IMG/VR virus record: IMGVR_UViG_3300003690_000299
Span: 1-20,657 of that record
Source of the DNA: a virus
Length of the DNA stretch: 20,657 bases
Direction: 5' to 3' (one strand)
Every line of letters begins with the position of its first letter. Position 1 is the stretch's first letter. This document shows, in pieces, positions 1,198 to 20,379 of this stretch. A model generated the notes under the pieces. The model did no database searches, was not told the origin of the DNA, and saw only the letters and a list, made by a program, of their open reading frames with translations. The translations under genes and the position numbers were made by a program.

Positions 1198-2061
1198 ATG
1201 ACTGCACAGGATGGCAACATCAAACAAAAAGTATCAACAGTAGGCGGCGCTGTCCAGCTATATCTTAGGTATCATATCGATCATATGGCCATTGATGCCC
1301 AGCGTGCTGAGATAGCATGGAGAAATATGGCGCCGCGCCTAAGCAACGTGCCCCTTCATGACCTTAATGGCCGCACTCTTAGTGCCTATACTGCCAATAG
1401 AAAAGCGTCGGCGGGTACAATCAACCGCGAACTGGGTGTCCTGAGCGCTGCCATACGTTGGTGCTACGCTCAAGGCTACACGGATAAACTAATACTGCTA
1501 CCTCGTCTTCCCTCTCCACCGCCTCGTCAGAGGTGGCTATCCAAGGAGGAGTGCGACAGGCTACTGGCTGCTGCTCGCCCCTATCCCCACGTCTGGGCGT
1601 TCATCGCGATGGCCCTGTTAACAGGCCAGCGCAAGGAAGCTATCCTTGGCCTGACAAAGGATCGGGTGTTTCTAGATGATGGATTCATCGATTTCAATGA
1701 GGATGGCCCCCTCTCCGAGAGGCGCAAAGCGAGGGCAGTAGTGCCAATCTCTGCTGAGATGCGTGAGTTGCTCGCGCTTCTTCAGTCCGACAGCATCTAC
1801 GTTGTTAACAACAATGGCCGGCGCATCAGGGATATGAGGAAGATATGGAGGAGGGTGACCGACACAGCCGGCCTAGAGGGAGTTACGCCGCATACACTCA
1901 GACACACGGTGGCCACGCTGTTGGTGCGGGCTGGCGTCCCGCTCATAGAAGTGTCGAAGCTGTTAGGTCACAGGGACAGCAGGGTCACCGAGAGAGTGTA
2001 CGCGAAGTTCAGCCCTGATTATTTGAAGAGGGCGACTGAGGCCCTGTCGATTGCTGCATGA
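1198..2061 (+). CDS. int: Tyrosine-type site-specific recombinase (phage integrase)
   Basis: This 287-residue integrase would catalyse site-specific recombination between phage and host attachment sites. The N-terminal part (about 15-105) is a SAM-like core-binding domain, including TINRELGVLSAAIRWCYAQG. The catalytic domain has the full set: Arg145 in LLTGQRKEAILGL, a probable beta-hairpin Lys177, His232-x-x-Arg235 in HTLRH, His258 in LLGHRD, and nucleophile Tyr268 in ERVYAKF. Length and spacing are normal for a compact phage integrase without an arm-binding domain. ATG 1198 has GGTGAGG upstream. Its 3' end overlaps the convergent Cys-rich gene by 53 bases. I see no tRNA-like attachment core nearby. 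The gene supports a temperate or once-temperate lifestyle. Confidence 0.95.
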   Translation: MTAQDGNIKQKVSTVGGAVQLYLRYHIDHMAIDAQRAEIAWRNMAPRLSNVPLHDLNGRTLSAYTANRKASAGTINRELGVLSAAIRWCYAQGYTDKLILLPRLPSPPPRQRWLSKEECDRLLAAARPYPHVWAFIAMALLTGQRKEAILGLTKDRVFLDDGFIDFNEDGPLSERRKARAVVPISAEMRELLALLQSDSIYVVNNNGRRIRDMRKIWRRVTDTAGLEGVTPHTLRHTVATLLVRAGVPLIEVSKLLGHRDSRVTERVYAKFSPDYLKRATEALSIAA

Positions 2062-2233
2062 TCCCATCGCAGCAGTCGTGAACTGAACGGTGGCAATTGA
2101 GGCAAGCGTAATGCCCGTGGATAAACTTTAATCTCGTAACCACCCCGCACCACGGGCAGTCGTGCCACCCATCTGGATCAAATGAAGAACTTCTTCTCCC
2201 ATCGTTTGTGTCGGAGCCACGGGATAAAGACAT
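2009..2233 (-). CDS. Small Cys-rich (zinc-ribbon-like) protein
   Basis: This 74-residue protein has CPWC (Cys26, Cys29), then FIHGHYACLNC (Cys44, Cys47) and HDCCDG (Cys54, Cys55). Two CxxC pairs 15 residues apart fit a zinc ribbon; the extra His and Cys residues may also bind metal. Small proteins of this CPWCG...HGHxxCxxC...CC type are, from memory, common in marine phages and Alphaproteobacteria, without known function. ATG 2233 lies inside the end of the upstream dioxygenase gene (56-base overlap), with a weak AAGGGTG about 7 bases upstream. No other in-frame start lies before the Cys cluster. It is the last gene of the leftward operon and runs 53 bases into the 3' end of the integrase on the opposite strand. 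Confidence 0.7.
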   Translation of the reverse strand: MSLSRGSDTNDGRRSSSFDPDGWHDCPWCGVVTRLKFIHGHYACLNCHRSVHDCCDGIMQQSTGPQSPSSNNQG

Positions 2234-2867
2234 AGGGGAACACCCTTGAGATCCAGACGATAAAATAGTTTATCCAGTTCAATGGCCGTGGCAATGGCTT
2301 CATGACATCCATGAATAGTACGGCTCGTAGCTGATCAGTATTATTGACTGCCCAATGTTTGTAGGTGTCATCGAAGAGGAGGCAGCGGCCCTCCCTCCAG
2401 TAGGCTTTCTTGCCCCCGACTATGATGTAGCATCGGTATGGATGAGGGATGTCGAGCGCCAAATGCAACCGAAGCACCCCTGAATACGGCCCTGAGTGGG
2501 GGTTCAGCTTCTTTCGTGGGCCAAGCACAGAAATGTAGGCAGATATCACATAGGGATGGCGACGTAAAATAGCGGTGGTAATAGGCATCAGCTTACAGTT
2601 CTTCTTGAACCAGATGCGAGCGCCCTTCAGGAAGAACATTCGCCATCTGTCATCGTTGCTGATGTAGGTTTGATCTGGGCTTATAGTTTGGAATGGAGCG
2701 AAGTCATCGTACCGTTTAATGATACGATCATATTCCTTGCGTATATCACCAAAGCTCTCTTCCAAATCACTGGCTATAGACACCGCGTTGGCATCGTAGA
2801 ATTTCTTTACTCCAAGAATATTCTTGCCCCGAAGCCAAGGCTGCATCAATCGTTCAATGATTATCAA
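2178..2867 (-). CDS. Fe(II)/2-oxoglutarate dioxygenase, Asp/Asn beta-hydroxylase family (LpxO-like)
   Basis: This 229-residue protein has the Asp_Arg_Hydrox fold core at about residues 55-192. Compared with human AspH as I recall it, the iron ligands match His124 (in NPHSGP) and His171 (in TYKHWA), and the 2-oxoglutarate residues match Arg133 (9 after the first His) and Arg181 (10 after the second His). The stretch FDDTYKHWAVNNTD followed by LFMDVMKP resembles bacterial LpxO, which 2-hydroxylates lipid A acyl chains, more than AspH. Residues about 197-218 are strongly hydrophobic, suggesting membrane association. The TTG start directly follows the TGA of the o-spanin-like gene, with GAGGAA just upstream. 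It is a phage auxiliary gene at the end of the late/lysis operon. Substrate is unknown: lipid A is an inference, and peptide Asp/Asn is the alternative. Confidence 0.85.
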   Translation of the reverse strand: MIIIERLMQPWLRGKNILGVKKFYDANAVSIASDLEESFGDIRKEYDRIIKRYDDFAPFQTISPDQTYISNDDRWRMFFLKGARIWFKKNCKLMPITTAILRRHPYVISAYISVLGPRKKLNPHSGPYSGVLRLHLALDIPHPYRCYIIVGGKKAYWREGRCLLFDDTYKHWAVNNTDQLRAVLFMDVMKPLPRPLNWINYFIVWISRVFPYVFIPWLRHKRWEKKFFI

Positions 2868-3095
2868 TCATTCCTCGCAGAGCGCTTCCCATACCGCATT
2901 GTATTGGTCGCCCCATACCAGCGTTGACTCTGCCCATGCCACTCCCTCCTCAACATAAGGGAATGGACCGGGCAAGCTAACGCAGGGAATGTACTTGATG
3001 TCACTCCGTATCGGGGGGGCCATACTTGTCTCGCAGCCGCTTACTGTCAGCATTATCACGAGCGCGACGAGCATTCTCAATCGCATTAAATGCAT
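2868..3095 (-). CDS. Putative outer-membrane lipoprotein, o-spanin (Rz1-like)
   Basis: I chose ATG 3095 (75 aa) because AAGGGG lies 7 bases upstream; in-frame TTG codons at 3101 and 3098 are weaker options. The N-terminus is a lipoprotein signal: basic residues, then MLVALVIMLT, then lipobox VSGC, so the mature protein would begin at the Cys of GCETS. The mature part is about 55 residues, with a PP pair and LPGPFPYVEEG. It overlaps the neighbouring helical gene by 95 bases in another frame, the usual architecture of Rz/Rz1 spanin pairs that fuse inner and outer membranes after holin and endolysin act. The lipoprotein call is strong; the spanin role is inferred from position and overlap. Confidence 0.65.
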   Translation of the reverse strand: MHLMRLRMLVALVIMLTVSGCETSMAPPIRSDIKYIPCVSLPGPFPYVEEGVAWAESTLVWGDQYNAVWEALCEE

Positions 3096-3216
3096 CAACA
3101 AGCCCCTTGTTTACGGCTTTAGATTCGCCAGCCTCCATAAGATTGCGATTGCGAGCCCACTCCGCGAGCAAGCCTGTCAACCTGAGCAATCCTTTTAGTA
3201 TGCCGAGGATGCTCAT
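3001..3216 (-). CDS. Putative i-spanin (Rz-like) helical protein
   Basis: This 71-residue protein starts at ATG 3216, overlapping the holin stop by 4 bases (ATGA), with AAGGA just upstream. Residues 2-19 (SILGILKGLLRLTGLLAE) form a hydrophobic, somewhat amphipathic helix that could anchor it in the inner membrane. The rest is charged and helical (NRNLMEAGESKAVNKGLVDA, then IENARRARDNADSKRLRDK), fitting a short periplasmic coiled coil. Its 3' half overlaps the lipoprotein gene. It follows lysozyme and holin, as expected for the spanin step of lysis. The membrane segment is weaker than in classical Rz, so a cytoplasmic helper protein remains possible. Confidence 0.55.
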   Translation of the reverse strand: MSILGILKGLLRLTGLLAEWARNRNLMEAGESKAVNKGLVDAFNAIENARRARDNADSKRLRDKYGPPDTE

Positions 3217-3431
3217 GCATCCTTGTTCTTATTTTTCATCACGTTACCAGCCAGCACGTTGAGAACCATCAAGACCCAGTTAACCACCCTGTCATCAGCC
3301 TTGCTTGGGGTGAGCGCCGTCAGCGCAGTCGCCGCGCTAACGATCCCGAAAATCGCGTGAACGTATGAGGGCCAACTGGAGACCCAACCCAAAATGAAAA
3401 CGCTTGAAGATTCGACAGCGGACATGTCCAT
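3213..3431 (-). CDS. Putative holin
   Basis: This 72-residue protein starts at ATG 3431, which overlaps the lysozyme stop (TAATG), with AGGAG 6 bases upstream. A transmembrane helix covers about residues 21-42 (SYVHAIFGIVSAATALTAL), followed by a polar loop (TPSKADDR), a second hydrophobic or amphipathic helix (VVNWVLMVLNVLAGNV), and a basic tail (MKNKNKDA). Small size, hydrophobic helices, a charged C-terminus and a position between endolysin and spanin genes fit a holin, which opens the inner membrane to release lysozyme. I do not assign it to a numbered holin family. It could be an antiholin or another small membrane protein, but no other holin candidate is present. Confidence 0.7.
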   Translation of the reverse strand: MDMSAVESSSVFILGWVSSWPSYVHAIFGIVSAATALTALTPSKADDRVVNWVLMVLNVLAGNVMKNKNKDA

Positions 3432-3895
3432 TACACGCTCCTCTTATTGTTGGAACTGGCGGTATTGTCTCCCAGTTTTATCATCAGCGCAAGGGTCTGA
3501 GCCCTCTGTCCTACTTGGCCCGCCCACTTGGAATCGAGTAGTTCTTCAGCCGCCTTGTCCCACAGATCGTCACCCAATGTGCAGTTTTCTATTAGCCGTA
3601 GAGTTTTCTTAAATGTTTTCAGGCGGTTAATTCCCAGATTAAAATGTAGGTCTACCAGTGCTGCCTGTCTCGTATCGTCTAGTTTGGTGAACCAGTGGAA
3701 GTTCCTCTTCAGTTCGCCGACAGATATCTCAATGTCATTGTCGAGAAGATGTCGGCACTCCTCCTTGGTGAGCCCTCTATCTGTCAGATTTCTTCCTACG
3801 CCGATAGTAATCTTACCCACCGTGTCCGTATAGGGGAAGCACTCCAGCCCCTCATGGTGAATCAGTTGGTCAGCCAACTTTAGAAGGTCGAGCAT
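3431..3895 (-). CDS. Endolysin: T4-type lysozyme (GH24 muramidase)
   Basis: This 154-residue enzyme hydrolyses the beta-1,4 bond between N-acetylmuramic acid and N-acetylglucosamine in peptidoglycan. Against T4 lysozyme, the catalytic triad is intact with exact spacing: Glu15 in HHEGLE, Asp24 in YTDTVGK, and Thr30 in KITIGVGRN (T4: Glu11, Asp20, Thr26). Downstream, ALVDLHFNLG and KTFKKTLRLIENC are also family-like. There is no signal peptide or SAR-like N-terminal helix, so export should depend on the holin. ATG 3895 follows the TAG of the giant upstream gene with no gap, preceded by a GAGGGGG purine tract, suggesting coupled translation. Confidence 0.95.
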   Translation of the reverse strand: MLDLLKLADQLIHHEGLECFPYTDTVGKITIGVGRNLTDRGLTKEECRHLLDNDIEISVGELKRNFHWFTKLDDTRQAALVDLHFNLGINRLKTFKKTLRLIENCTLGDDLWDKAAEELLDSKWAGQVGQRAQTLALMIKLGDNTASSNNKRSV

Positions 3896-6800
3896 CTACC
3901 CCCTCAACTCCCTGTTAATTTGAACAGAGAGCTTGCGGATACCAGTGAGTACATCTGATTTCAGGCGCTTGATTTGACGAATATATTTTCGTTTTTCCTC
4001 ACTGCTCATTACACGATCAGCCCTGATCTTAACCTCCTGATTACGCAAGTCAGATATCCTCTCACTCAAGTAATCTATTCTTGCCTTACGAGATACAAGC
4101 GGCCAGTTCTCTCTCCGTCTCTCCGCTGCCTGCTCAAAGTTCATGTTTGCCTCGTCTTCGGCAATGGAGTTTGCAACAAGTGCAAGTGCTTCCTTCAATG
4201 CATAGAAAGACTGAAGGTCTCCCCCCCCAAGTTCATCCTGCAAGAACCTCTGGAAGAATGGGTACTCTGTTGGGTTCATCGCCGGGGCATCCGGGTATCC
4301 CGCTATCGATCTTGAGATCGCATCCACTGCTTGGAGAGAATAGCGTCCCAGAGTACCCGTGTATGCTATCAGTATATGTTCTATCTTCTCAGCGGAGATA
4401 CCTGTTATTTTTGCCAGTTCTCTGGCAGTTTCCCCGACGCCAGCCCGTGCCTGCTCAGGAGCATTGCCTTCTGAGTAGGAAGGAACGATAGCTGACATAT
4501 CATACATTCTGACATTCACCGCAGCTTCGACCAACGGCTTCATAAACTGTGGTATAGGATTCATGTTCAGCGTGCCGACCACTCCTCTACCCATAGCCTG
4601 TCTAAAATCCTTGGCATCGTCAGTGCCGTTGATCAATCTGATCAAACGCTCTGGCAATACCTTGGTGAGTAGTCCCACCTCAAAAGCAATCGGTATCTTG
4701 GGCACTGAGACTGTCTTGGGGTTAAGGCCCATCCACTGAGGCTTCAGGATAAAATACATATCCTTCTTCTCTTCAGTGGCATTGGCATAGTGTGGGTCTT
4801 CCTCCGGGTCATCACTATGAGCAAGGGCATAGGCCGCCGATAGAGCGACAAGAGTAGTCGTGCGCCAGATAAATCTGCGCTTCCTTTCTGCGACCCTGAA
4901 GCTGCTGATACCATCTGCGCTGGCTGGACTGCCACGCCATAGTACATCCAGCCCCTGTATCCTTGCATTCAAGAAGGGAACCAGTGCCGTAACGAATTGA
5001 ATGGCCTTGCTGCGCCCTTTCCTGCTGAAGTTAATAACCTCAAGAGCTTCGTAAGCGGCCTGTGCTTCGTTCCCTGTCTCTCGTAACACAGCATTATAGA
5101 CAGCAATACGGGTTCCCATATCACTCGCTACCGTTATATCGTCTGCGAATTGCCACAGCTTCATAGCCGGGGCCAGCGGGGATTTGATGCTGGGTATCCA
5201 TCCCTTGGTCAGGTAATCCTTAGCTGATCCAGCGCCTGCGACACCCCTCCTCATGTACCCTTCCATAGATTTCTTCGCATCTTTGGGATCATTCTTGAAG
5301 TCAAAGCCACCGAAGACACCACTCGCCCTTAACAGAGCAGCCGATCCTGTACCACCCAGAGCCTCCCCGAAACCTAGTGCAGTACCAATGACAGGCCAGA
5401 TACTGGTCCCTGACGTAGTCCAAGCAGTGACCGTATCACGCAGCAAATTCGCCAGCATGAAGTCGGGCGTCTTGGTAACCAATTCACGAAGAAGATTCGC
5501 AGGGGTAGACATGATAGACATGCCCGGAATCTGTAGATCACCTGTTGCCTGCATGGAGTGAAGAAGCAGCGGGTCTGACGTGTAAAACCATACCGTCTCC
5601 CCATTAATCCTGACACCTATCTGATCGTTTACTATAGATTTACTCTCTGCTCCGGGGGCTAACCGCTCCGCCATATTCAGCCGACCCAAATCTCTAATGG
5701 CGCGCAGCATCCCCACGTTCCGCATGGAAGCGGTGATGGCAGCGTTGGCATTACGAAGAATATTCTCTAGAGGATCTTGAATACGCTGGGTGCTGGCCTT
5801 CACCTCAACCTTCGCGGGGGGAACACCGGGACGATCATTTAATTTCTTTAACAGGTCTATTCTTTCAAGGATCTTCGGTCCAGTCTTCTTGTCAAAGACC
5901 TTCACGTCCCTCACCCCATTGACCATAATAAAGAATGTCGGTTTACCTCCCTTCAGTTCCCTTGGGGCTGGGACATTGTACATATTCTGGAGTAAGTTGT
6001 TGTTAGCCCCGGCAGCAGTACCTACCTTGGAGGCCATTAGTACTTCATCCTGATCGGTTATTGGCAACTCATAAACCACCTGACCATCCAGCCCTCCCTC
6101 TCTGGTATCATCTACAAAGAGTTCCCTGTAGAACGGGAGGTAGTCACTGTTATCTCTCCATATCTGGGCTGCTTCCGTTGAGATCAGGTTCGCATCTTGC
6201 ATCATTAAGATCAGGGCATTGTTCAGTTTCTGGTAGTCATCATAAACTTGTTTAATCACAGAGTTACCATCGGCATCCTGATACTGTGGCTTATCCGCTA
6301 TCGCTAAACCCTGCTCTATCATCTCGTCTGTCATCATAAACTCACGCCCCTTGGGGTGTGCTGGCGTTGGCTCCTTCAGGCGCTTGGCCCTTCTCGCAGC
6401 GGCATAGAGTCCCCATGCCTCAAAGGAACCATACTTACGGAGATCATAAAGAGGATAGACTATCTGCATGAAGCCCTTCACTTCATCACTTGGCGCATAC
6501 CCGGCACGGGCCTTGAGATCAGATAACTCCTGCCTTAATATCGTCTGTAGTTCAGGAGGCGCTGCCTCTACTATCCTTGAATTGATGGCATGGAACATCC
6601 CACGGCTGTACATCAGAGGACCAACCGTCATCCACTGCTGCATCAAACCAGAAGATCTGTCGAGCATAGCCATCATGGCTGCCGCACTGGAGTCAGCATA
6701 GATATTGGCGTAGAGGTCGGGGAACTTCTTCCTTAATGCCACTTCAACAGCGCGTACCCCTTCCCACCTGTCCACAAAATTCCACCGCCAACGGCTCGGG

Positions 6801-8932
6801 CGAGAGAAGCTCTCGCTATAACGGAACATACCAAGGACATATTCCCCCAGAGTCTTGCGCTCTTTCTTGGTAGAGCCCATCACGTCGGCCAGCATCGCCC
6901 GATCAGAGGCATCAAGACCTTCGGGATTATTTATCTGGAGATGGCGCTTCTCTTTCTGGGACAGCTTGAGGATGGGCTTGTTGGCATTGGCACCGTTGGC
7001 CTCCCTCTTTGCAGTTAAGCTGACAGCGGGGCTAATAATCTGAGTCGGGCGCACATTGTACTTACCCACTTCTACGGGAAGTGCGTATGCAGTTACGAGA
7101 GAGGCAAAGTTTTTGTTACTTAACTCTCGATTGAGGGGGAAGATTGCATTAAAGTTAATTGGTTGCAGGACAATAGTACCGGGGGTAGCCCACCGATCAT
7201 ACCACCAGCGGATTACAAGTTTCTTCCCCCGTATATTATCAGTGTAGTCATCTGTCTCGTATACCTCAAACCCTGCTTCCTTCAGGGTGCCCTCAATCCT
7301 GTTGGCGTTGTACATATTGAGGATACCGGACACAAAGGAGTCCACGGAGTTATAATTGGTGTTCTCAACGATGTCGTCCAGATGTAAGGCGACGTGCTCC
7401 TGCCCCCAGCCAACATCTTTTCTAAGGCTTTCCGAGTATTCATTTTTCCCAGAAAGCAGGAGTACAGGATATTTCTTGCCCCCTATTACAACAGGAGTAA
7501 CCCCTCCATTGTACTTTTTAAGAGGGACGAAATTTGCGGGGGTTACATTATGGAAACCAGAGAAACTTCTCTGAAGATTTTGCCCCTCCCGTTCCGTTAA
7601 GGGGCGATCTCTACGGCCAGAGATAAGTTTCTCATCGACAGCACGCCTGCGTGGCCGTACCTCTTCTTCCTGTATTACAGCCTCTCCTTGTGGAGGCGGT
7701 AGAGACAGCCCTTCACTCCCCGGCAGTTCCGCCAGAGAAGCGTCTACTGTAGCATCGTTAACCATGACAAACTCAAGCGGGAGAAGGTCAACCTTCTGTT
7801 CAGAGAAACCACGTTCCCGCAGAGACAACCCGGCGACTCCTTCACGAGCATTAACCCAGCTATTCTGGCCCCTTGTCTCTGATGTTAAAGCCCACCTAGC
7901 CCACGGGTTATCGGTCATTAACATATGATTACGCCAGGCAGCCTCTTCTCCTCGTTGCCCGAAAGTAACAGGCGACATCGTATGTGCGTAGTAATCATGG
8001 ACGGCGCGAAGAAGATCGTTGTAAACAAGAGGACGACCATTCATATCAGTGCGCCCGCTGTCGGCAAGCAACGGATGATTATCGTAGGTTACGCCGGGTG
8101 GCCCAAATTCCCCGGCGTCAGTGGCCTTGATATACAGGTGGTTGTTGAAGAGAACGTCCTCCCGCATCTTGGCAGACATTCTCTTGCCCCCGTAAGGCTG
8201 CCCATCCCCAGGCCATACTTCTATCTTAATGGGCATCGCATCGAACTGTAGTAAAAGCTCTTGAGCTAATTGTTCGTAAGCATGTCGAACTATCGGATCA
8301 TCCAAACCATCCAAGCGCAGAGCATCATACGCATCTGCGATACGCCGTTGAACTCGTTGCTTCTCTGGAGTTATTGTTAGTGCTTGTTGGGAAGGCTGGA
8401 ATAAACGATTAACTAAACGGGATGCTACCCTTAACGTGGACGCCGACGCCCTGTCGTTTGACGGGGGACGAAATCTACCCTGTATGTCTCCGTAGCTGTG
8501 GGTTGCTCCCCGTCCTCTTCCGTAGGCCCAGAGTCTGGAAATATCTCTCCTAGTATTTTGTACCCTTCCTCCCAAGGATTTCCTTGCGCGTTGCGTAGCC
8601 TTGATAAAATCGTTGAATTGGTCGGCATTTGTTGGGTCTCCTACTAAGTAAGCCTCAAGGTACTGATCTGTTACCGTCAGTCCAGCAAGACCAGAAGAGT
8701 CTATCACCTTCTGTATCTCTTTTCTAGACAGCGGTTCTTTCAGATTAAATCTAACAGTAGCCGTATTGTATGATCCATCTTCGTACTGATGGCCTGCGAT
8801 AGTTCTGGGCTGTTTCTCGCCACGCACATGGATTTGTGCCTGATTAAAGTTGGTGCCAAATTTAGCGAGGGCAGATAAAACCCTTGGCCTGTCTGCCTCT
8901 CGGAAGGATAGGGTTACACCTAATGATGGCAT
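3896..8932 (-). CDS. Giant polyvalent virion-type protein with LPD38-like C-terminal domain
   Basis: This 1678-residue protein is probably packaged and perhaps ejected with the DNA. The N-terminus is a compact domain (about 1-110, VTLSFREADRPRVL). A second domain at about 195-360 has LLRAVHDYYAHT, GEEAAWRNHMLM and SETRGQNSWVN. Residues about 485-640 hold VGWGQEHVALHLDD (near 512), possibly nuclease-like. The helical region at about 700-1100 is unassigned. About 1155-1540 resembles LPD38, with LLRDTVTAW, VINFSRKGRSKAIQF, FLNARIQGLDVLWRG, a hydrophobic helix near 1360-1375 and FEVGLLTKVLPERLIRL. The C-terminal 100 residues are a charged coiled coil. ATG 8932 has no clear ribosome-binding site and overlaps the upstream reading frame by 71 bases, so translation is probably coupled. 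Domain names come from motif recall. Confidence 0.8.
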   Translation of the reverse strand: MPSLGVTLSFREADRPRVLSALAKFGTNFNQAQIHVRGEKQPRTIAGHQYEDGSYNTATVRFNLKEPLSRKEIQKVIDSSGLAGLTVTDQYLEAYLVGDPTNADQFNDFIKATQRARKSLGGRVQNTRRDISRLWAYGRGRGATHSYGDIQGRFRPPSNDRASASTLRVASRLVNRLFQPSQQALTITPEKQRVQRRIADAYDALRLDGLDDPIVRHAYEQLAQELLLQFDAMPIKIEVWPGDGQPYGGKRMSAKMREDVLFNNHLYIKATDAGEFGPPGVTYDNHPLLADSGRTDMNGRPLVYNDLLRAVHDYYAHTMSPVTFGQRGEEAAWRNHMLMTDNPWARWALTSETRGQNSWVNAREGVAGLSLRERGFSEQKVDLLPLEFVMVNDATVDASLAELPGSEGLSLPPPQGEAVIQEEEVRPRRRAVDEKLISGRRDRPLTEREGQNLQRSFSGFHNVTPANFVPLKKYNGGVTPVVIGGKKYPVLLLSGKNEYSESLRKDVGWGQEHVALHLDDIVENTNYNSVDSFVSGILNMYNANRIEGTLKEAGFEVYETDDYTDNIRGKKLVIRWWYDRWATPGTIVLQPINFNAIFPLNRELSNKNFASLVTAYALPVEVGKYNVRPTQIISPAVSLTAKREANGANANKPILKLSQKEKRHLQINNPEGLDASDRAMLADVMGSTKKERKTLGEYVLGMFRYSESFSRPSRWRWNFVDRWEGVRAVEVALRKKFPDLYANIYADSSAAAMMAMLDRSSGLMQQWMTVGPLMYSRGMFHAINSRIVEAAPPELQTILRQELSDLKARAGYAPSDEVKGFMQIVYPLYDLRKYGSFEAWGLYAAARRAKRLKEPTPAHPKGREFMMTDEMIEQGLAIADKPQYQDADGNSVIKQVYDDYQKLNNALILMMQDANLISTEAAQIWRDNSDYLPFYRELFVDDTREGGLDGQVVYELPITDQDEVLMASKVGTAAGANNNLLQNMYNVPAPRELKGGKPTFFIMVNGVRDVKVFDKKTGPKILERIDLLKKLNDRPGVPPAKVEVKASTQRIQDPLENILRNANAAITASMRNVGMLRAIRDLGRLNMAERLAPGAESKSIVNDQIGVRINGETVWFYTSDPLLLHSMQATGDLQIPGMSIMSTPANLLRELVTKTPDFMLANLLRDTVTAWTTSGTSIWPVIGTALGFGEALGGTGSAALLRASGVFGGFDFKNDPKDAKKSMEGYMRRGVAGAGSAKDYLTKGWIPSIKSPLAPAMKLWQFADDITVASDMGTRIAVYNAVLRETGNEAQAAYEALEVINFSRKGRSKAIQFVTALVPFLNARIQGLDVLWRGSPASADGISSFRVAERKRRFIWRTTTLVALSAAYALAHSDDPEEDPHYANATEEKKDMYFILKPQWMGLNPKTVSVPKIPIAFEVGLLTKVLPERLIRLINGTDDAKDFRQAMGRGVVGTLNMNPIPQFMKPLVEAAVNVRMYDMSAIVPSYSEGNAPEQARAGVGETARELAKITGISAEKIEHILIAYTGTLGRYSLQAVDAISRSIAGYPDAPAMNPTEYPFFQRFLQDELGGGDLQSFYALKEALALVANSIAEDEANMNFEQAAERRRENWPLVSRKARIDYLSERISDLRNQEVKIRADRVMSSEEKRKYIRQIKRLKSDVLTGIRKLSVQINRELRG

Positions 8933-15880: not shown

Positions 15881-16957
15881 TCAACCCCCCATCACGCTGC
15901 GAGCCAACCCTAGACCACCAAGGCCATAGCCCATCATTTGTTGGCCAATACTTGGCTGCGCCTGGTAAGTGCTAACTTCAGAAGAAGGAGTGACGGGAGC
16001 CCCATGCAGGATACCTCCGTAGTAGGCAAGCTGTTGCCGTGGGAAGTCCCGTTGCGAGATGAAGTCTGACAGCCCCACATCCAGTTGCTGCTGCTCAAAG
16101 GCTCTCTGTTGTTCTCCTACCTGCCTAAGAACATCAGCGCCACGCAAACCAAGAGCCTGTTCCTGTGCGCCTAACGCTGCTAACGCAGGCGCTGCACGAA
16201 GGCCAAGCTCTTCGCCTGCAATTCCAAGACGGGCTTGTTGCTGCGCTGCCTCTTCGCGCAAACCCTCGGCTTGTAACTGAGTTCTGGCCTGTTGTTGCAT
16301 TGCTTGCTCTCTTAAACCCTGCGATCTGAGCAATGCTTGCCGATCCTGTTCAAATACGCCCGTTGCTTCACGGTACGCCTGCGCCCGCTGAGTGGCCTCA
16401 ATGTCCCCAAGCCTCTCTTCCATTCTTCCTCTAGCAGAAGCCTCAGTTACTCCAGCGCGATAACCACCAAATGCTCCCTGACCGACGGCCTTAGCCGCAA
16501 GCTGCGGCACAAAATCTTCTTCAAACTGACGGCGTGCGCGTCTCTGCTGCACGTCAATCACATTCTCTATGAAGGGGTTCATGTACTGCGAGGCAACACC
16601 CGGAGCTACAAAGGAGCCCGGCGTAAATTCACCGGGGGCGGCTACCGGAGAAAAATCCCCCGGAGTATAACCGGGGCGGAATGCGGCTGCATCCTCAAGC
16701 CTTTGGGTGGCAGTACCCAGTTGTCCGGGCACGCCCTGTCGGGCGACACCTGATGCTATAGCAAATGACTCTTGCTGCTCAGGCGTGAACTCAGCAAGCC
16801 TCTGCCCCGGAAAGGCTTCGTATGGCCGCAGGCTCTCAGCCTCTGTCCTCTCCAAGACGTTCTCAAAGAAGGGCCGCACATATTCAGGCAGGTTTGTCTG
16901 CGTCACCGTCGATGTAGTCTGCGTCGGAGGCCCTGGGCCTCCACCACCTTTACCCAT
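15881..16957 (-). CDS. Gln/Ala-rich virion-type protein (MGKGGG family of marine phages)
   Basis: I choose ATG 16957 (358 aa), 7 bases after GAGGAG; the adjacent ATG at 16960 has only 4-base spacing, and the longer frame up to 17011 has no support. The N-terminus MGKGGGGPGPPTQTTSTVTQ is low-complexity, followed by LPEYVRPFFENVLERTEAES. Central motifs are NPFIENVIDVQQRRARRQFE and GQGAFGGYRAGVTEASARGR. Residues about 200-300 are a Gln/Ala/Leu-rich coiled coil with degenerate repeats (GLREQAMQQQAR, GLREEAAQQQAR). The C-terminus is Gly-rich and hydrophobic (GLGGLGLARSVMGG). I recall similar proteins in uncultured marine phages near internal virion or tail genes, without known function. It overlaps the GNAT-like gene by 8 bases. 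Confidence 0.75.
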   Translation of the reverse strand: MGKGGGGPGPPTQTTSTVTQTNLPEYVRPFFENVLERTEAESLRPYEAFPGQRLAEFTPEQQESFAIASGVARQGVPGQLGTATQRLEDAAAFRPGYTPGDFSPVAAPGEFTPGSFVAPGVASQYMNPFIENVIDVQQRRARRQFEEDFVPQLAAKAVGQGAFGGYRAGVTEASARGRMEERLGDIEATQRAQAYREATGVFEQDRQALLRSQGLREQAMQQQARTQLQAEGLREEAAQQQARLGIAGEELGLRAAPALAALGAQEQALGLRGADVLRQVGEQQRAFEQQQLDVGLSDFISQRDFPRQQLAYYGGILHGAPVTPSSEVSTYQAQPSIGQQMMGYGLGGLGLARSVMGG

Positions 16958-17384
16958 CATTTTTCTCCTCGAACATTTTTTCAAAAACAGTGTATTCAGG
17001 TGTCCAGCCATGCGTGGCTAACACTTTGGAGAACCCTTTACGACCAGTCATTTCTACACCCGCGCAATGATTATCCTTGGCCCATTGCTCCAACGTCTCC
17101 AGCATCGGATCACGCCACTGCATAATATCTCTGCCGCCTAAGAATTGGCCGGCCAACATACGTTTATCTGGATAATCGATAAACCTAGTAGTGAGCGCTG
17201 CTACAATCTCCTTGTCATCATCAAAGACAATCCAGAGATGCTGCTGAAAGTTTACAATCTCTCTAAGAATACTCTCCATTGTGAAGCGGCCATGCGCCGT
17301 GTGGAGAGACTTCCGAAGTATCGACTCTACCCTGTCCCAAACAGCAGATACATAGTTAGGGTCTACCAGTGATACTTCAGCCAT
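16950..17384 (-). CDS. GNAT-like acetyltransferase-fold phage protein
   Basis: I choose ATG 17384 (144 aa), which overlaps the end of the upstream gene by 8 bases; the GTG at 17417 is the alternative and would add 11 residues. The pattern fits a GNAT fold: an N-terminal helix (VWDRVESILRKSL), helix ESILREIVNFQ, strand LWIVFDDDKEIVAALTTRF, a loop with LAGQFLGGRDIMQW at the expected acetyl-CoA region, helix MLETLEQWAKDNHC, strand AGVEMTGRKGFSKVLATHGW, and YTVFEKMF. GNAT-like proteins of this kind occur between structural genes in many marine phages. The substrate is unknown; it may be structural or may modify a virion protein. The canonical Q/RxxGxG/A loop is not clear, so catalytic activity is uncertain. 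Confidence 0.55.
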   Translation of the reverse strand: MAEVSLVDPNYVSAVWDRVESILRKSLHTAHGRFTMESILREIVNFQQHLWIVFDDDKEIVAALTTRFIDYPDKRMLAGQFLGGRDIMQWRDPMLETLEQWAKDNHCAGVEMTGRKGFSKVLATHGWTPEYTVFEKMFEEKNDG

Positions 17385-20379
17385 AAACCCTGCGTAGCTG
17401 TTCCTCTTCCTGGCCACGAACTATGGCACCATTCTGTGGAGTTCCAGCCATGCCTGCCGCCATCGCCCTGCGTGATAAACTGTCCGCAGGTTCTATATAC
17501 TCGTTCTCCCCAACCAACAGGTTGGCTGTCTGCTTACCAGTGGTGGGGTCAACGATCTTACCCGGTATAACATCTGGGCCTTGCTGCGCCATCGCTTCCT
17601 CTTCTGTCATACCAACAGTGGTCTCTCCACTCGCCGTCTGTACCAGACCGCCGTTCTCTCGCTCACCACCTACCAGCGCCTGTAATTGCCGGAATGCTTG
17701 AGGCCCGAAGGTGTCAATGAATTCTGTAATAGCAGATTGCGCCGGCTCTGGCTCAAGCTCACCCTGCAAAGCGAGAACAGCCCGATCAAAGATAACCCGT
17801 TCTACGGGATTCTGCGGTTGGTCTGGTGCTGGCACAACCATCTCTCTCTCCGCTACCACTTCCTGCATGTCGGGAGTGGAGACTTCCATGATGCCAGTCT
17901 TCGATATCTCTGGCTCTCCAGCCACACCGCCATCACGTTTATTAATAATCTTATCGAACCAAAGGTTCGCTTGGTCAGCTACATCGAGACCCGTGTCGAG
18001 TGGACTAAACTTCTCGAACCAACGGTTCACTTGGCCAGCTACATCGAGACCCGTGTCGAGTGGACTAAACTTATCGAACCAACGGTTCGCTTGGCCAGCT
18101 ACATCGAGACCCGTGTCGAGTGGACTAAACTTATCGAACCAACGGTTCGCTTGGCCAGCTACATCAGACCAGCGGTGCCGAGAATCAATGCCTGCCAACC
18201 CACCATTAGCCCTGCGGTAAACCCGCTCCCTCATCATCGGATCAGCTACATCAGACCAGCGGTACTGAGGGTCTATGCCTGCCAGACCGCCGTTCGCTCT
18301 ACGATAAACTTGCTCCCTCATCGTCGGGTCAGGCGTATCAGACCAGCGGTACTGGGGGTCTATAAGATTACCAACGGGGCCACCATGAGCAGCCATCGCT
18401 GTTTGCTGTGGCCGTACCATCGGCAGCTTATCTGGAGAAATGCTAGAAGTATAATAACCGAGTTGTTGTTTGGGTTGCGCCCTCTGTTGCATGGGGTTCT
18501 GATTAAACGGCGTGGCTCCAGCCTGCCGTTGACCACCAAGACCAGCACCCATCATTGCTAGTTGATTGAGAGTTTGAGACCCCTGTCGCTGCTGCTGTTG
18601 GCCGCGCGGAATATCAATTTGCTTGTACCCAGACTGCGCCATGATTGTCGGCATTCCGCCTGCATAGCCGCCGCCGTTCCCGTAAGAGCCTGCATAGCCG
18701 CCGCCGTAAGGGAGGTACTGGAACTGCGGGTCCACGCCCGGTCGGTATCCTTCAGGTGGTGAGGCGACTGGCCGCTCATCTGGGCGATATGGACCTTCAT
18801 AATTATAAGAGCCAATACCATCTATTTCATCCCAATTATATTGAGGCTCATCAAATAAATTAAAAGCTCCACCACCAATGCCGGCAGCCGCCGCCAGTCC
18901 CGGCATGGCTACCTCTTGCCAGCCAACTGTACCCGGCGTGGATGCCCACTGTGTGGGATCGAAGCTCCCAAGCCCCTCGCCAAGTGCGGCCCAAGTTGGA
19001 TCGGCAGCAAACGCTTGTTTGCCCGCTGCCATCATAGCAGCGTCTTTCGTGGCGGGTGCGCCATATTGTAAAGCTAACTTCGCGGACGCATCGACGGGAA
19101 GACCTGCAGTAAGACTTGAGAAAGCATTAGGGGCTACAACATTTCCCCCTGCTCCAGCCAGTGATTGGTACATCCCTTCTCCTACAGCACGCTGACTAGC
19201 GGCGCCAGCGGCCTGTGTCGCTGTTTCAGCCGCAGCAACCTCTCCAGCACCACCAAATACACTCCCAAGTTGTCCAGCACCCCAGCCGCCAAGACCAGCG
19301 AGGAATGCTTTCCCCACGTCAACCCCCTCACCTTCTACTGCCTGACCAGCCAAGCTGCCAGCGCCTGAAGCTAATCCAAGCGCCCAAGGTGCGGCAGTGC
19401 CGCCACTAGCCACTGTCAGGCCAATGCCAGCAATTATTGGCAGTAGGCTACTCCAGATACCTGCTTCAGGTAGTCCCGTAGCAGGATTGATAGCCATGCC
19501 ATTGGCACGAAGTCCACCGATACCAGACGCAGCCAATGCGTTCAGCGCATTCACTTCATTCTGTGTCATGTGGACAAGCCTGTCATGGGCATCTTGAACC
19601 ATGCCGCCTGTATTCATGCCAACTACAGGGGCTTCGTGCCTAAACAGTGATTCCATCTGTTTCCTCCAAGTTCGATTATCACGCACCGCCGGTCCCGGCG
19701 CATACGGAGCACTGTATGTCTGCGCGAGAGCCGGATACTGCTCTATATATTTTTGACGTGCGAGTTCCTGTCCTCTGTTCAAGAGAAGTGTATGAAATTT
19801 ATTGACAGGGGCCGGGTTAGTATCCTGCGCGGCGAGCTTCCTCATCGGAAGATCGGGATGCCGCAAATCCTCGCGTCTGGTGATTGGTTCATTCAGCTTT
19901 TGAGCCTCACGCAGAATCCCCCTCCGTCTCTCTCTCTCTTCATCGGATGCCTCTGACCAGTCCAATCTGTCTGAACTTTGGTCGGGGGCTGCTCGCCGCA
20001 GAACCTCATGGATTAAACTCCCTAGCCCGGCTTTGGCCATCCCTCGGTGGCGATATTCGTGGGCGCCTACACCAGAGCCTATGTCGCCCGTGTGCCAAAC
20101 AGTGTCGGTACTGGGGGTGTAGGTGCCAAATACATTCCATAAGCGACCATCGCTTTTTTCTTGAGTATGATACGGCGTTGTTTCCAAATTCAAACCCGGC
20201 GCAAACATACCCAGCTTGGCAAGAAAATCGTTTTCCATCTGTGGCGCATGGGCTATTTCGTATTCCGTTTGTGCGAGCCTGATGGCCGGATGGTCGCTCG
20301 GAGGTCTCTGGACAACAGGCATCGACCGTATCCGTGACGTGAGCGATGTTGGGGGGGCTGAGTAATATCGGTCAGTCAT
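17377..20379 (-). CDS. Large repeat-bearing virion-type protein with N-terminal HEYRH motif (1000 aa)
   Basis: ATG 20379 has AGGAG 6 bases upstream. Residues 107-111 are HEYRH within GVGAHEYRHRGMAKAG, a zincin-type HExxH motif; no third ligand is obvious. Residues about 310-355 are a Gly/Ala-rich hydrophobic segment (LLPIIAGIGLTVASGGTAAP) that continues as a Gly-rich stretch, like membrane-penetrating segments of ejection proteins. Residues about 540-650 are Tyr/Gly/Gln-rich and probably disordered (PYGGGYAGSYGNGGGYAGG). Residues about 665-810 hold two nested tandem arrays: three 29-residue units (NGGLAGIDPQYRWSDVADP...) and about 3.6 20-residue units (DVAGQANRWFDKFSPLDTGL). The C-terminal 190 residues are mostly acidic. 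Its position first among the giant genes suggests a structural or ejected protein. The HExxH may be functional or coincidental. Confidence 0.75.
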   Translation of the reverse strand: MTDRYYSAPPTSLTSRIRSMPVVQRPPSDHPAIRLAQTEYEIAHAPQMENDFLAKLGMFAPGLNLETTPYHTQEKSDGRLWNVFGTYTPSTDTVWHTGDIGSGVGAHEYRHRGMAKAGLGSLIHEVLRRAAPDQSSDRLDWSEASDEERERRRGILREAQKLNEPITRREDLRHPDLPMRKLAAQDTNPAPVNKFHTLLLNRGQELARQKYIEQYPALAQTYSAPYAPGPAVRDNRTWRKQMESLFRHEAPVVGMNTGGMVQDAHDRLVHMTQNEVNALNALAASGIGGLRANGMAINPATGLPEAGIWSSLLPIIAGIGLTVASGGTAAPWALGLASGAGSLAGQAVEGEGVDVGKAFLAGLGGWGAGQLGSVFGGAGEVAAAETATQAAGAASQRAVGEGMYQSLAGAGGNVVAPNAFSSLTAGLPVDASAKLALQYGAPATKDAAMMAAGKQAFAADPTWAALGEGLGSFDPTQWASTPGTVGWQEVAMPGLAAAAGIGGGAFNLFDEPQYNWDEIDGIGSYNYEGPYRPDERPVASPPEGYRPGVDPQFQYLPYGGGYAGSYGNGGGYAGGMPTIMAQSGYKQIDIPRGQQQQRQGSQTLNQLAMMGAGLGGQRQAGATPFNQNPMQQRAQPKQQLGYYTSSISPDKLPMVRPQQTAMAAHGGPVGNLIDPQYRWSDTPDPTMREQVYRRANGGLAGIDPQYRWSDVADPMMRERVYRRANGGLAGIDSRHRWSDVAGQANRWFDKFSPLDTGLDVAGQANRWFDKFSPLDTGLDVAGQVNRWFEKFSPLDTGLDVADQANLWFDKIINKRDGGVAGEPEISKTGIMEVSTPDMQEVVAEREMVVPAPDQPQNPVERVIFDRAVLALQGELEPEPAQSAITEFIDTFGPQAFRQLQALVGGERENGGLVQTASGETTVGMTEEEAMAQQGPDVIPGKIVDPTTGKQTANLLVGENEYIEPADSLSRRAMAAGMAGTPQNGAIVRGQEEEQLRRVYG
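17951..18165 (-). repeat. 60-bp in-frame tandem repeat array (~3.6 copies)
   Basis: Units start at 18001, 18061 and 18121, with a partial left copy from 17951 and a partial right copy ending at 18165. Copies 18061-18105 and 18121-18165 are identical over 45 bases. The others differ from the 18061 unit at 2 positions each (60 and 50 bases compared). Each full unit encodes DVAGQANRWFDKFSPLDTGL. The near-identity points to recent expansion by slippage or recombination. Confidence 0.95.
18161..18375 (-). repeat. 87-bp in-frame tandem repeat array (~2.5 copies)
   Basis: Equivalent points lie at 18161, 18248 and 18335, an exact 87-base period. The 29-residue unit includes NGGLAGIDPQYRWSD and MMRERVYRRA. 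The copies are more diverged than those of the 60-bp array. The unit at its 3' coding end runs into the first 60-bp unit through a shared Asp-Val-Ala, so the younger array seems to have grown out of this one. Confidence 0.9.

Follow-up and report, generated by a model that had tools for sequence, protein, structure and literature searches.

The stretch of DNA analysed here, referred to as the window, is a virus record of 20.7 kb (20,657 nucleotides), which encodes a tyrosine integrase, an endolysin, a holin-like open reading frame (ORF), a spanin-like lipoprotein, a polyvalent protein with an LPD38 domain and a DNA-ejection protein. The ORF under study is located on the minus strand (2178-2867), starts with a TTG codon and codes for a protein of 229 amino acids. 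Residues 37-191 of this protein match the family PF05118 (Asp_Arg_Hydrox) in a profile search with an E-value of 1.7e-42 and a score of 145.4 bits, the gathering score being 22.6 bits. The protein recurs at 87-51% identity in 61 viral contigs of one scan, and 309 viral relatives were confirmed by a profile search. The dN/dS ratios of pairs with estimable dS range from 0.03 to 0.11, which places the ORF far from a chance ORF. Family match, viral recurrence and these ratios show that the ORF is a real gene for a full-length PF05118 protein and bear out its initial annotation as a dioxygenase gene.

Gene organization around the hydroxylase gene

The genes preceding the hydroxylase gene on the same strand code for the large polyvalent protein (3896..8932; PF18857, E 3.3e-21), an endolysin of the phage lysozyme type (3431..3895; PF00959, E 1.1e-12; PHROG endolysin, E 1.5e-19), a small hydrophobic protein that is holin-like by sequence and position (3213..3431; PHROG 9685 of unknown function, E 1.4e-6), a 71-amino acid protein (3001..3216) and a small lipoprotein (2868..3101; LPAM_1, E 0.0068). 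The 71-amino acid ORF yielded no informative family match in profile searches; it overlaps the lipoprotein gene, and overlap and position make it a candidate for an i-spanin-like partner. It had been noted that the hydroxylase gene starts directly at the stop codon of an o-spanin-like lipoprotein gene. Indeed, the stop codon TGA (2870-2868) abuts the TTG start codon without a gap, and a GAGGA motif is found upstream of the TTG; the lipoprotein thus adjoins the hydroxylase as described, but its designation as o-spanin-like is less well founded (PHROG Rz-like spanin, E 0.033). Orientation and overlap suggest that the hydroxylase gene is transcribed together with the late genes.

The 3' end of the hydroxylase gene overlaps a small ORF on the minus strand (2009..2233) coding for a Cys-rich, zinc-ribbon-like protein of 74 amino acids, which has no Pfam match. 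The ORF, with its motif CPWCG...C..C, is conserved in the related contigs L003, L005, L009, L015 and L016. It also overlaps, in antisense orientation, the 3' end of the gene for the tyrosine integrase (1198..2061, plus strand; PF00589, E 4.7e-19), which is convergent to the late operon and marks the lineage of the window. A strong GC-rich hairpin, which is terminator-like on the minus strand, is present between an RHH gene and the integrase gene (1153-1179), and transcription of the late genes could extend as far as this hairpin, crossing the integrase gene in antisense orientation. A further plus-strand gene (484-822) codes for a DUF6378 protein of 112 amino acids; its PHROGs name 'phosphofructokinase' (E 2.8e-25) looks unreliable for a protein of that size. 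At the other end of the window, the minus strand carries the genes for a DNA-ejection-type protein (15881..17011; PHROG 4287 DNA ejection protein, E 4.7e-22), an acetyltransferase-like ORF with weak PHROG matches only (16950..17417; acetyltransferase, E 0.051) and a virion-type protein of 1000 amino acids, which is assigned by synteny and has no family match (17377..20379).

Three genomic contexts, gain and loss

The hydroxylase gene is found in three arrangements among the 61 relatives of the first scan. In context A, to which the window belongs, the order is polyvalent protein, endolysin, holin, lipoprotein, hydroxylase and integrase. In context B, the gene lies between a homolog of the 1000-amino acid virion protein and an acetyltransferase-like gene, which is followed by the gene for the ejection protein; the corresponding acetyltransferase-like site of the window carries no hydroxylase gene, whereas its homolog in context B has one just upstream. 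In context C, the hydroxylase gene follows the polyvalent protein gene and precedes the genes for the endolysin, a holin-like protein and a spanin-like pair. The primase-helicase of a context A record is found in context C records, but not in those of context B. In five context A contigs (L017-L021), the lysis genes have been replaced and the hydroxylase gene is still the last one; in L020, which was checked for this, a peptidase M15 endolysin (2954-3331) is present where the window type has a lysozyme.

Relatives lacking the gene were found for each of the three contexts, although the contigs counted here are not independent samples: 21 of 25 contigs with a close integrase carry the hydroxylase gene and four do not, 22 of 24 contigs with a close context C endolysin (87% or more) carry it, the exceptions being L285 and L290, and four of the five acetyltransferase-site relatives for context B are devoid of it. 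In the four contigs with an empty integrase site (L254, L258, L259 and L260), the homologous Cys-rich ORF is missing together with the hydroxylase gene, and all of them share one junction, at which the first hydroxylase codons run into the sequence beyond the Cys-rich ORF. This shared junction is a deletion scar. L290 has kept what appear to be the last 16 nucleotides of the gene. The matching empty sites together with the low dN/dS ratios characterize the hydroxylase gene as a dispensable but selected cargo gene.

The gene had further been described as joined to the lysis cassette. It does adjoin the cassette in the window; however, in relatives it is located between structural genes, at the other end of the cassette or is absent. 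Its position within the lysis genes is therefore not constant, with three late-operon sites and empty sites, and an obligate link to lysis is ruled out by synteny and the empty sites. The hydroxylase gene is lysis-adjacent in two of three lineages and is not part of the lysis system. The virion-protein neighbors in one lineage would be in line with an AspH-like peptide Asp/Asn beta-hydroxylase acting on a phage virion or lysis protein or on a host protein, but the neighbors vary among the three sites, so that there is no constant neighboring partner.

A profile built from viral members only scores 313-417 bits on these proteins, including 313 bits for L075, which was not part of the profile, and at most 232 bits in 754 sampled bacterial genomes (385 alpha- and 369 gammaproteobacterial). 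Viral-type hydroxylases, as detected by this profile, are absent from these genomes, no prophage carrying the gene was seen in them, and an initial scan of genomes for exact peptide patterns gave no match. The best match in the genome collection is L075 itself (PBMQ01000020.1), a phage contig in a metagenome-assembled genome (MAG) labelled Euryarchaeota. L075 carries, besides the hydroxylase gene, terminase-like and portal-like genes, and its binning is likely a contamination of the public MAG. Matches to the integrase reach only 36-41% identity, and neither the window nor 31 loci yielded a tRNA gene. For one structural protein of context B, the closest named relatives, with 31-35% identity, are those of phage DSL-LC04, the Roseobacter phages CRP-901/902 and the pelagiphages HTVC023P/027P. 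From these relatives and from IMG sample numbers, the uncultured phages carrying the hydroxylase gene are probably marine.

Family relationships of the viral hydroxylases

The iron ligands of the hydroxylase are H124 and H171, and 2-oxoglutarate is contacted by S113, R133, H135 and R181. His124, Arg133, His135, His171 and Arg181 are invariant in 81 OlsC-like rows and in 135 viral rows, which count some contigs twice; the two iron histidines and the two 2-oxoglutarate arginines pointed out in the initial annotation are thus found in all viral relatives. In an alignment with AspH, these histidine and arginine residues fall on H679, R688, H725 and R735 (as named in PDB titles). The AlphaFold2 model, which was calculated from an alignment of 62 sequences, has a pLDDT of 93.9 and a pTM of 0.91, and the predicted fold is the AspH-type double-stranded beta-helix. 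AspH is the top match both in Foldseek (E 5.9e-15) and in VIA-align (Z 23.4, with an rmsd of 2.8 for 195 residues). That AspH is the only close match among solved structures favors a peptide substrate; however, the structure searches cannot separate lipid from peptide substrates, because OlsC and LpxO structures are absent among the hits. In the model, the last helix (211-227) lies mostly beyond the part aligned with AspH, and amphipathic character is seen in the preceding helix (196-209) and in the N-terminal helix, with hydrophobic moments of 0.53 and 0.59; the protein may thus associate with the membrane.

The protein had been annotated as similar to LpxO, the lipid A 2-hydroxylase, in particular. 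It does match the LpxO profile (E 6.9e-31), but it reaches 170 bits on the model of OlsC, the ornithine lipid ester-linked acyl 2-hydroxylase, and 107 bits on that of LpxO, and six viral relatives drawn from all contexts score 179-205 and 100-118 bits, respectively. The control proteins behaved reciprocally: Rhizobium tropici OlsC scored 537 on the OlsC and 123 on the LpxO model, Salmonella LpxO 537 on the LpxO and 124 on the OlsC model. By profile score, the hydroxylase is clearly closer to OlsC than to LpxO. It stays far below the equivalog cut-off of OlsC (NF052565, 450 bits) and also misses that of LpxO (NF033391, 500 bits), and is consequently filed as neither of the two. It has been reported previously that genes first called lpxO proved to be olsC (PMC5767591).

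The residue comparison points in the same direction. F59, I62, N90, S113, K119, G126, D167 and N200 are fixed in the OlsC-like and fixed or nearly fixed in the viral rows and differ in all four LpxO rows, S113, K119, G126, D167 and N200 being invariant in the 135 viral and 81 OlsC-like rows, whereas no site was found at which the viral clade agrees with all four LpxO proteins and differs from OlsC. Since three of these four LpxO rows have an N terminus shortened by the chosen start sites, no claim is made on the N-terminal segment of LpxO beyond the Salmonella protein. Because the patterns used to collect the OlsC-like proteins covered D72, W75 and the GP-G-LR-H motif, conservation at these positions is partly by construction. 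Viral, OlsC-like and AspH proteins have an HxG motif, whereas LpxO proteins have HxD. The C-terminal tail, which had been described as hydrophobic and reminiscent of LpxO, turned out to be a helix pair, the first helix of which is amphipathic, and it contains no transmembrane segment of the LpxO type: the highest 19-residue hydropathy in the C-terminal part is 1.19, compared to 1.72-2.53 in four LpxO proteins. As the OlsC profile is preferred and the protein has neither HxD nor Glu167 nor a C-terminal segment of strong hydrophobicity, the LpxO assignment was not supported; membership in the LpxO family is ruled out by profile score, motif and hydrophobic segment, but not by the tree.

LpxO-like genes are also present on a record of a phage collection (OR845289.1, 4,421 bases) and on Enterobacter plasmids such as NZ_AP025917.1 (4,760 bases); as these records, labelled as plasmid or phage, are very small, LpxO may itself be a mobile gene.

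The viral hydroxylases form one virus-only clade, which includes L075, with support values of 96/96 in a wider tree and 100/100 in a tree with AspH as outgroup. The wider tree places AspH, together with three divergent PF05118 proteins, outside the group of OlsC, LpxO and viral proteins (100/99), and this separation speaks against a peptide hydroxylase, although all of these outside rows have long branches. When an AspH fragment with a long branch served as the sole outgroup, AU tests did not distinguish between a clade of viral proteins and LpxO (p 0.514), one of viral proteins and OlsC (p 0.524) and one of OlsC and LpxO without the viral proteins (p 0.491); the position of the viral clade on the side of AspH, which the peptide reading would predict, was thus not rejected. 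The AU tests cannot order the viral proteins, OlsC, LpxO and AspH, and the tree neither confirms nor refutes the LpxO call. As the tree does not decide, the assignment to lipid hydroxylases builds on the profile scores, on the residues shared with OlsC and on overall identity, which is 34-45% between viral and OlsC-like proteins and 22-26% between viral proteins and AspH. By sequence, the hydroxylase is nearer to enzymes acting on lipid acyl chains than to those acting on peptides, and the claim of a phage-encoded Fe(II)/2-oxoglutarate hydroxylase of this kind is upheld.

Substrate, proposed function and comparison with known systems

One residue sets the viral proteins apart from both lipid enzymes. 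Arg125, which adjoins the first iron histidine, occurs without exception in the 81 OlsC-like and the four LpxO rows; in 132 of the 135 viral rows, it is replaced by Glu (76), Ala (30), Ser (22), Thr or Asn. The protein of the window has Ser at this position and thus lacks the HRG motif of OlsC. Further differences fixed in the viral proteins are located near active-site strands. With the loss of Arg125, the substrate may differ: if Arg125 reads the charged headgroup of the lipid, the viral enzymes would have a different substrate, which may be a lipid other than an ornithine lipid or even no lipid at all. AspH likewise lacks this arginine, which is a further point for the peptide hydroxylase; however, given the lower identity to AspH and the retention of OlsC-specific residues and of the C-terminal tail, a peptide substrate is considered unlikely. 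The loss of Arg125 could also reflect a shift to another membrane lipid, such as a phospholipid, a sulfonate-containing aminolipid or a lysine or glycine aminolipid. The fixed differences at and beyond position 125 would fit this, and several unusual aminolipids are found in marine roseobacters (PMC9938194, PMC11631085); such a specificity is given little credence. An LpxO-like lipid A hydroxylase would catalyze the same type of reaction on the same kind of acyloxyacyl chain, and the LpxO profile match and the clade with LpxO, which the AU test did not reject, agree with it, but the lower LpxO score, Gly126 in place of HxD, the absence of Glu167 and of the strongly hydrophobic segment, and the lack of any site shared with LpxO against OlsC make this function quite improbable; lipid A is a possible, but less likely substrate. 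A point against the lipid reading is that no co-encoded PF01553 acyltransferase was found in eight larger relatives.

On balance, we lean towards a late-acting interfacial hydroxylase of the OlsC/LpxO kind, which would modify acyloxyacyl membrane lipids, probably aminolipids. The terminal helices may attach the enzyme to the cytoplasmic side of the inner membrane. OlsC and LpxO both act on an ester-linked chain carried by a 3-hydroxy acyl chain, which is most likely also true of the viral enzyme; it would hydroxylate the ester-linked 'piggy-back' chain, most likely at C2, of a lipid that is most likely an aminolipid of the ornithine or glutamine type rather than lipid A. By late co-transcription, the host membrane would be modified during virion production and before lysis, and the phage might benefit from an altered membrane packing before holin triggering or from a reduced adsorption of further phages. 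Ruegeria pomeroyi makes ornithine and glutamine lipids, and adsorption of phage DSS3-Phi2 to a mutant without both is about four-fold lower (PMC9938194), which makes an effect of the hydroxylase on superinfection conceivable. It is tempting, if rather speculative, to extend this to a branch of acyl-chain hydroxylases that is specific to viruses and has an altered active site; late in infection, it would modify an aminolipid, or an as yet undescribed acyloxyacyl lipid, of marine bacteria that are abundant, and thereby change lysis timing or exclude competing phages.

Little has been documented on phage genes that modify acyl chains in the membrane lipids of the host, and no report of a phage-encoded lipid A or ornithine-lipid hydroxylase was found in the open-licence literature, although an earlier description elsewhere is possible. 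The phages carrying the hydroxylase gene may chemically modify the host membrane late in infection. If true, the rewriting of aminolipids by a phage would link membrane chemistry to phage competition and provide a testable function for some of the phage genes annotated as 'aspartyl/asparaginyl hydroxylase', a name which implies a peptide substrate. Genes of the same family name have been described as aspartyl/asparaginyl hydroxylases in pelagimyophages and in a Limnohabitans phage (PMC7029224, PMC12195039), and phages of the HTVC023P type carry several 2-oxoglutarate oxygenases (PMC9599517).

The closest known system is OlsC (NF052565) of Rhizobium tropici, Ochrobactrum and Brucella microti, whose chemistry has been described (PMC11001654). 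The viral protein resembles it in the near full-length profile alignment (residues 18-228), the HxG iron motif, S113, K119, D167, N200 and W223 and the C-terminal tail; it differs in its score (170-205 bits against the cut-off of 450), the replaced Arg125, a shorter N terminus and the location of its gene in a phage late operon. LpxO (NF033391) shares the PF05118 domain and, presumably, the reaction on a secondary acyl chain, but possesses HxD, Glu167 and a strongly hydrophobic C-terminal segment, and the viral protein reaches 107 of the 500 bits required. Human AspH has the same fold (Z 23), the iron histidine and 2-oxoglutarate arginine pairs and HxG without an acidic third ligand; in contrast to the viral protein, with which it shares 22-26% identity, it contains a TPR region but neither the last C-terminal helix nor the OlsC-specific residues. 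Among phage proteins of PF05118, cyanophage TlmH and that of Pseudomonas phage Itty13 match the core only (34-37% of the query) and have very long branches, while the core hydroxylase of pelagimyophages (PMC7029224) and the gene of Limnohabitans phage DC33 (PMC12195039), which are likewise phage-borne, are PF05118-type or same-named genes.
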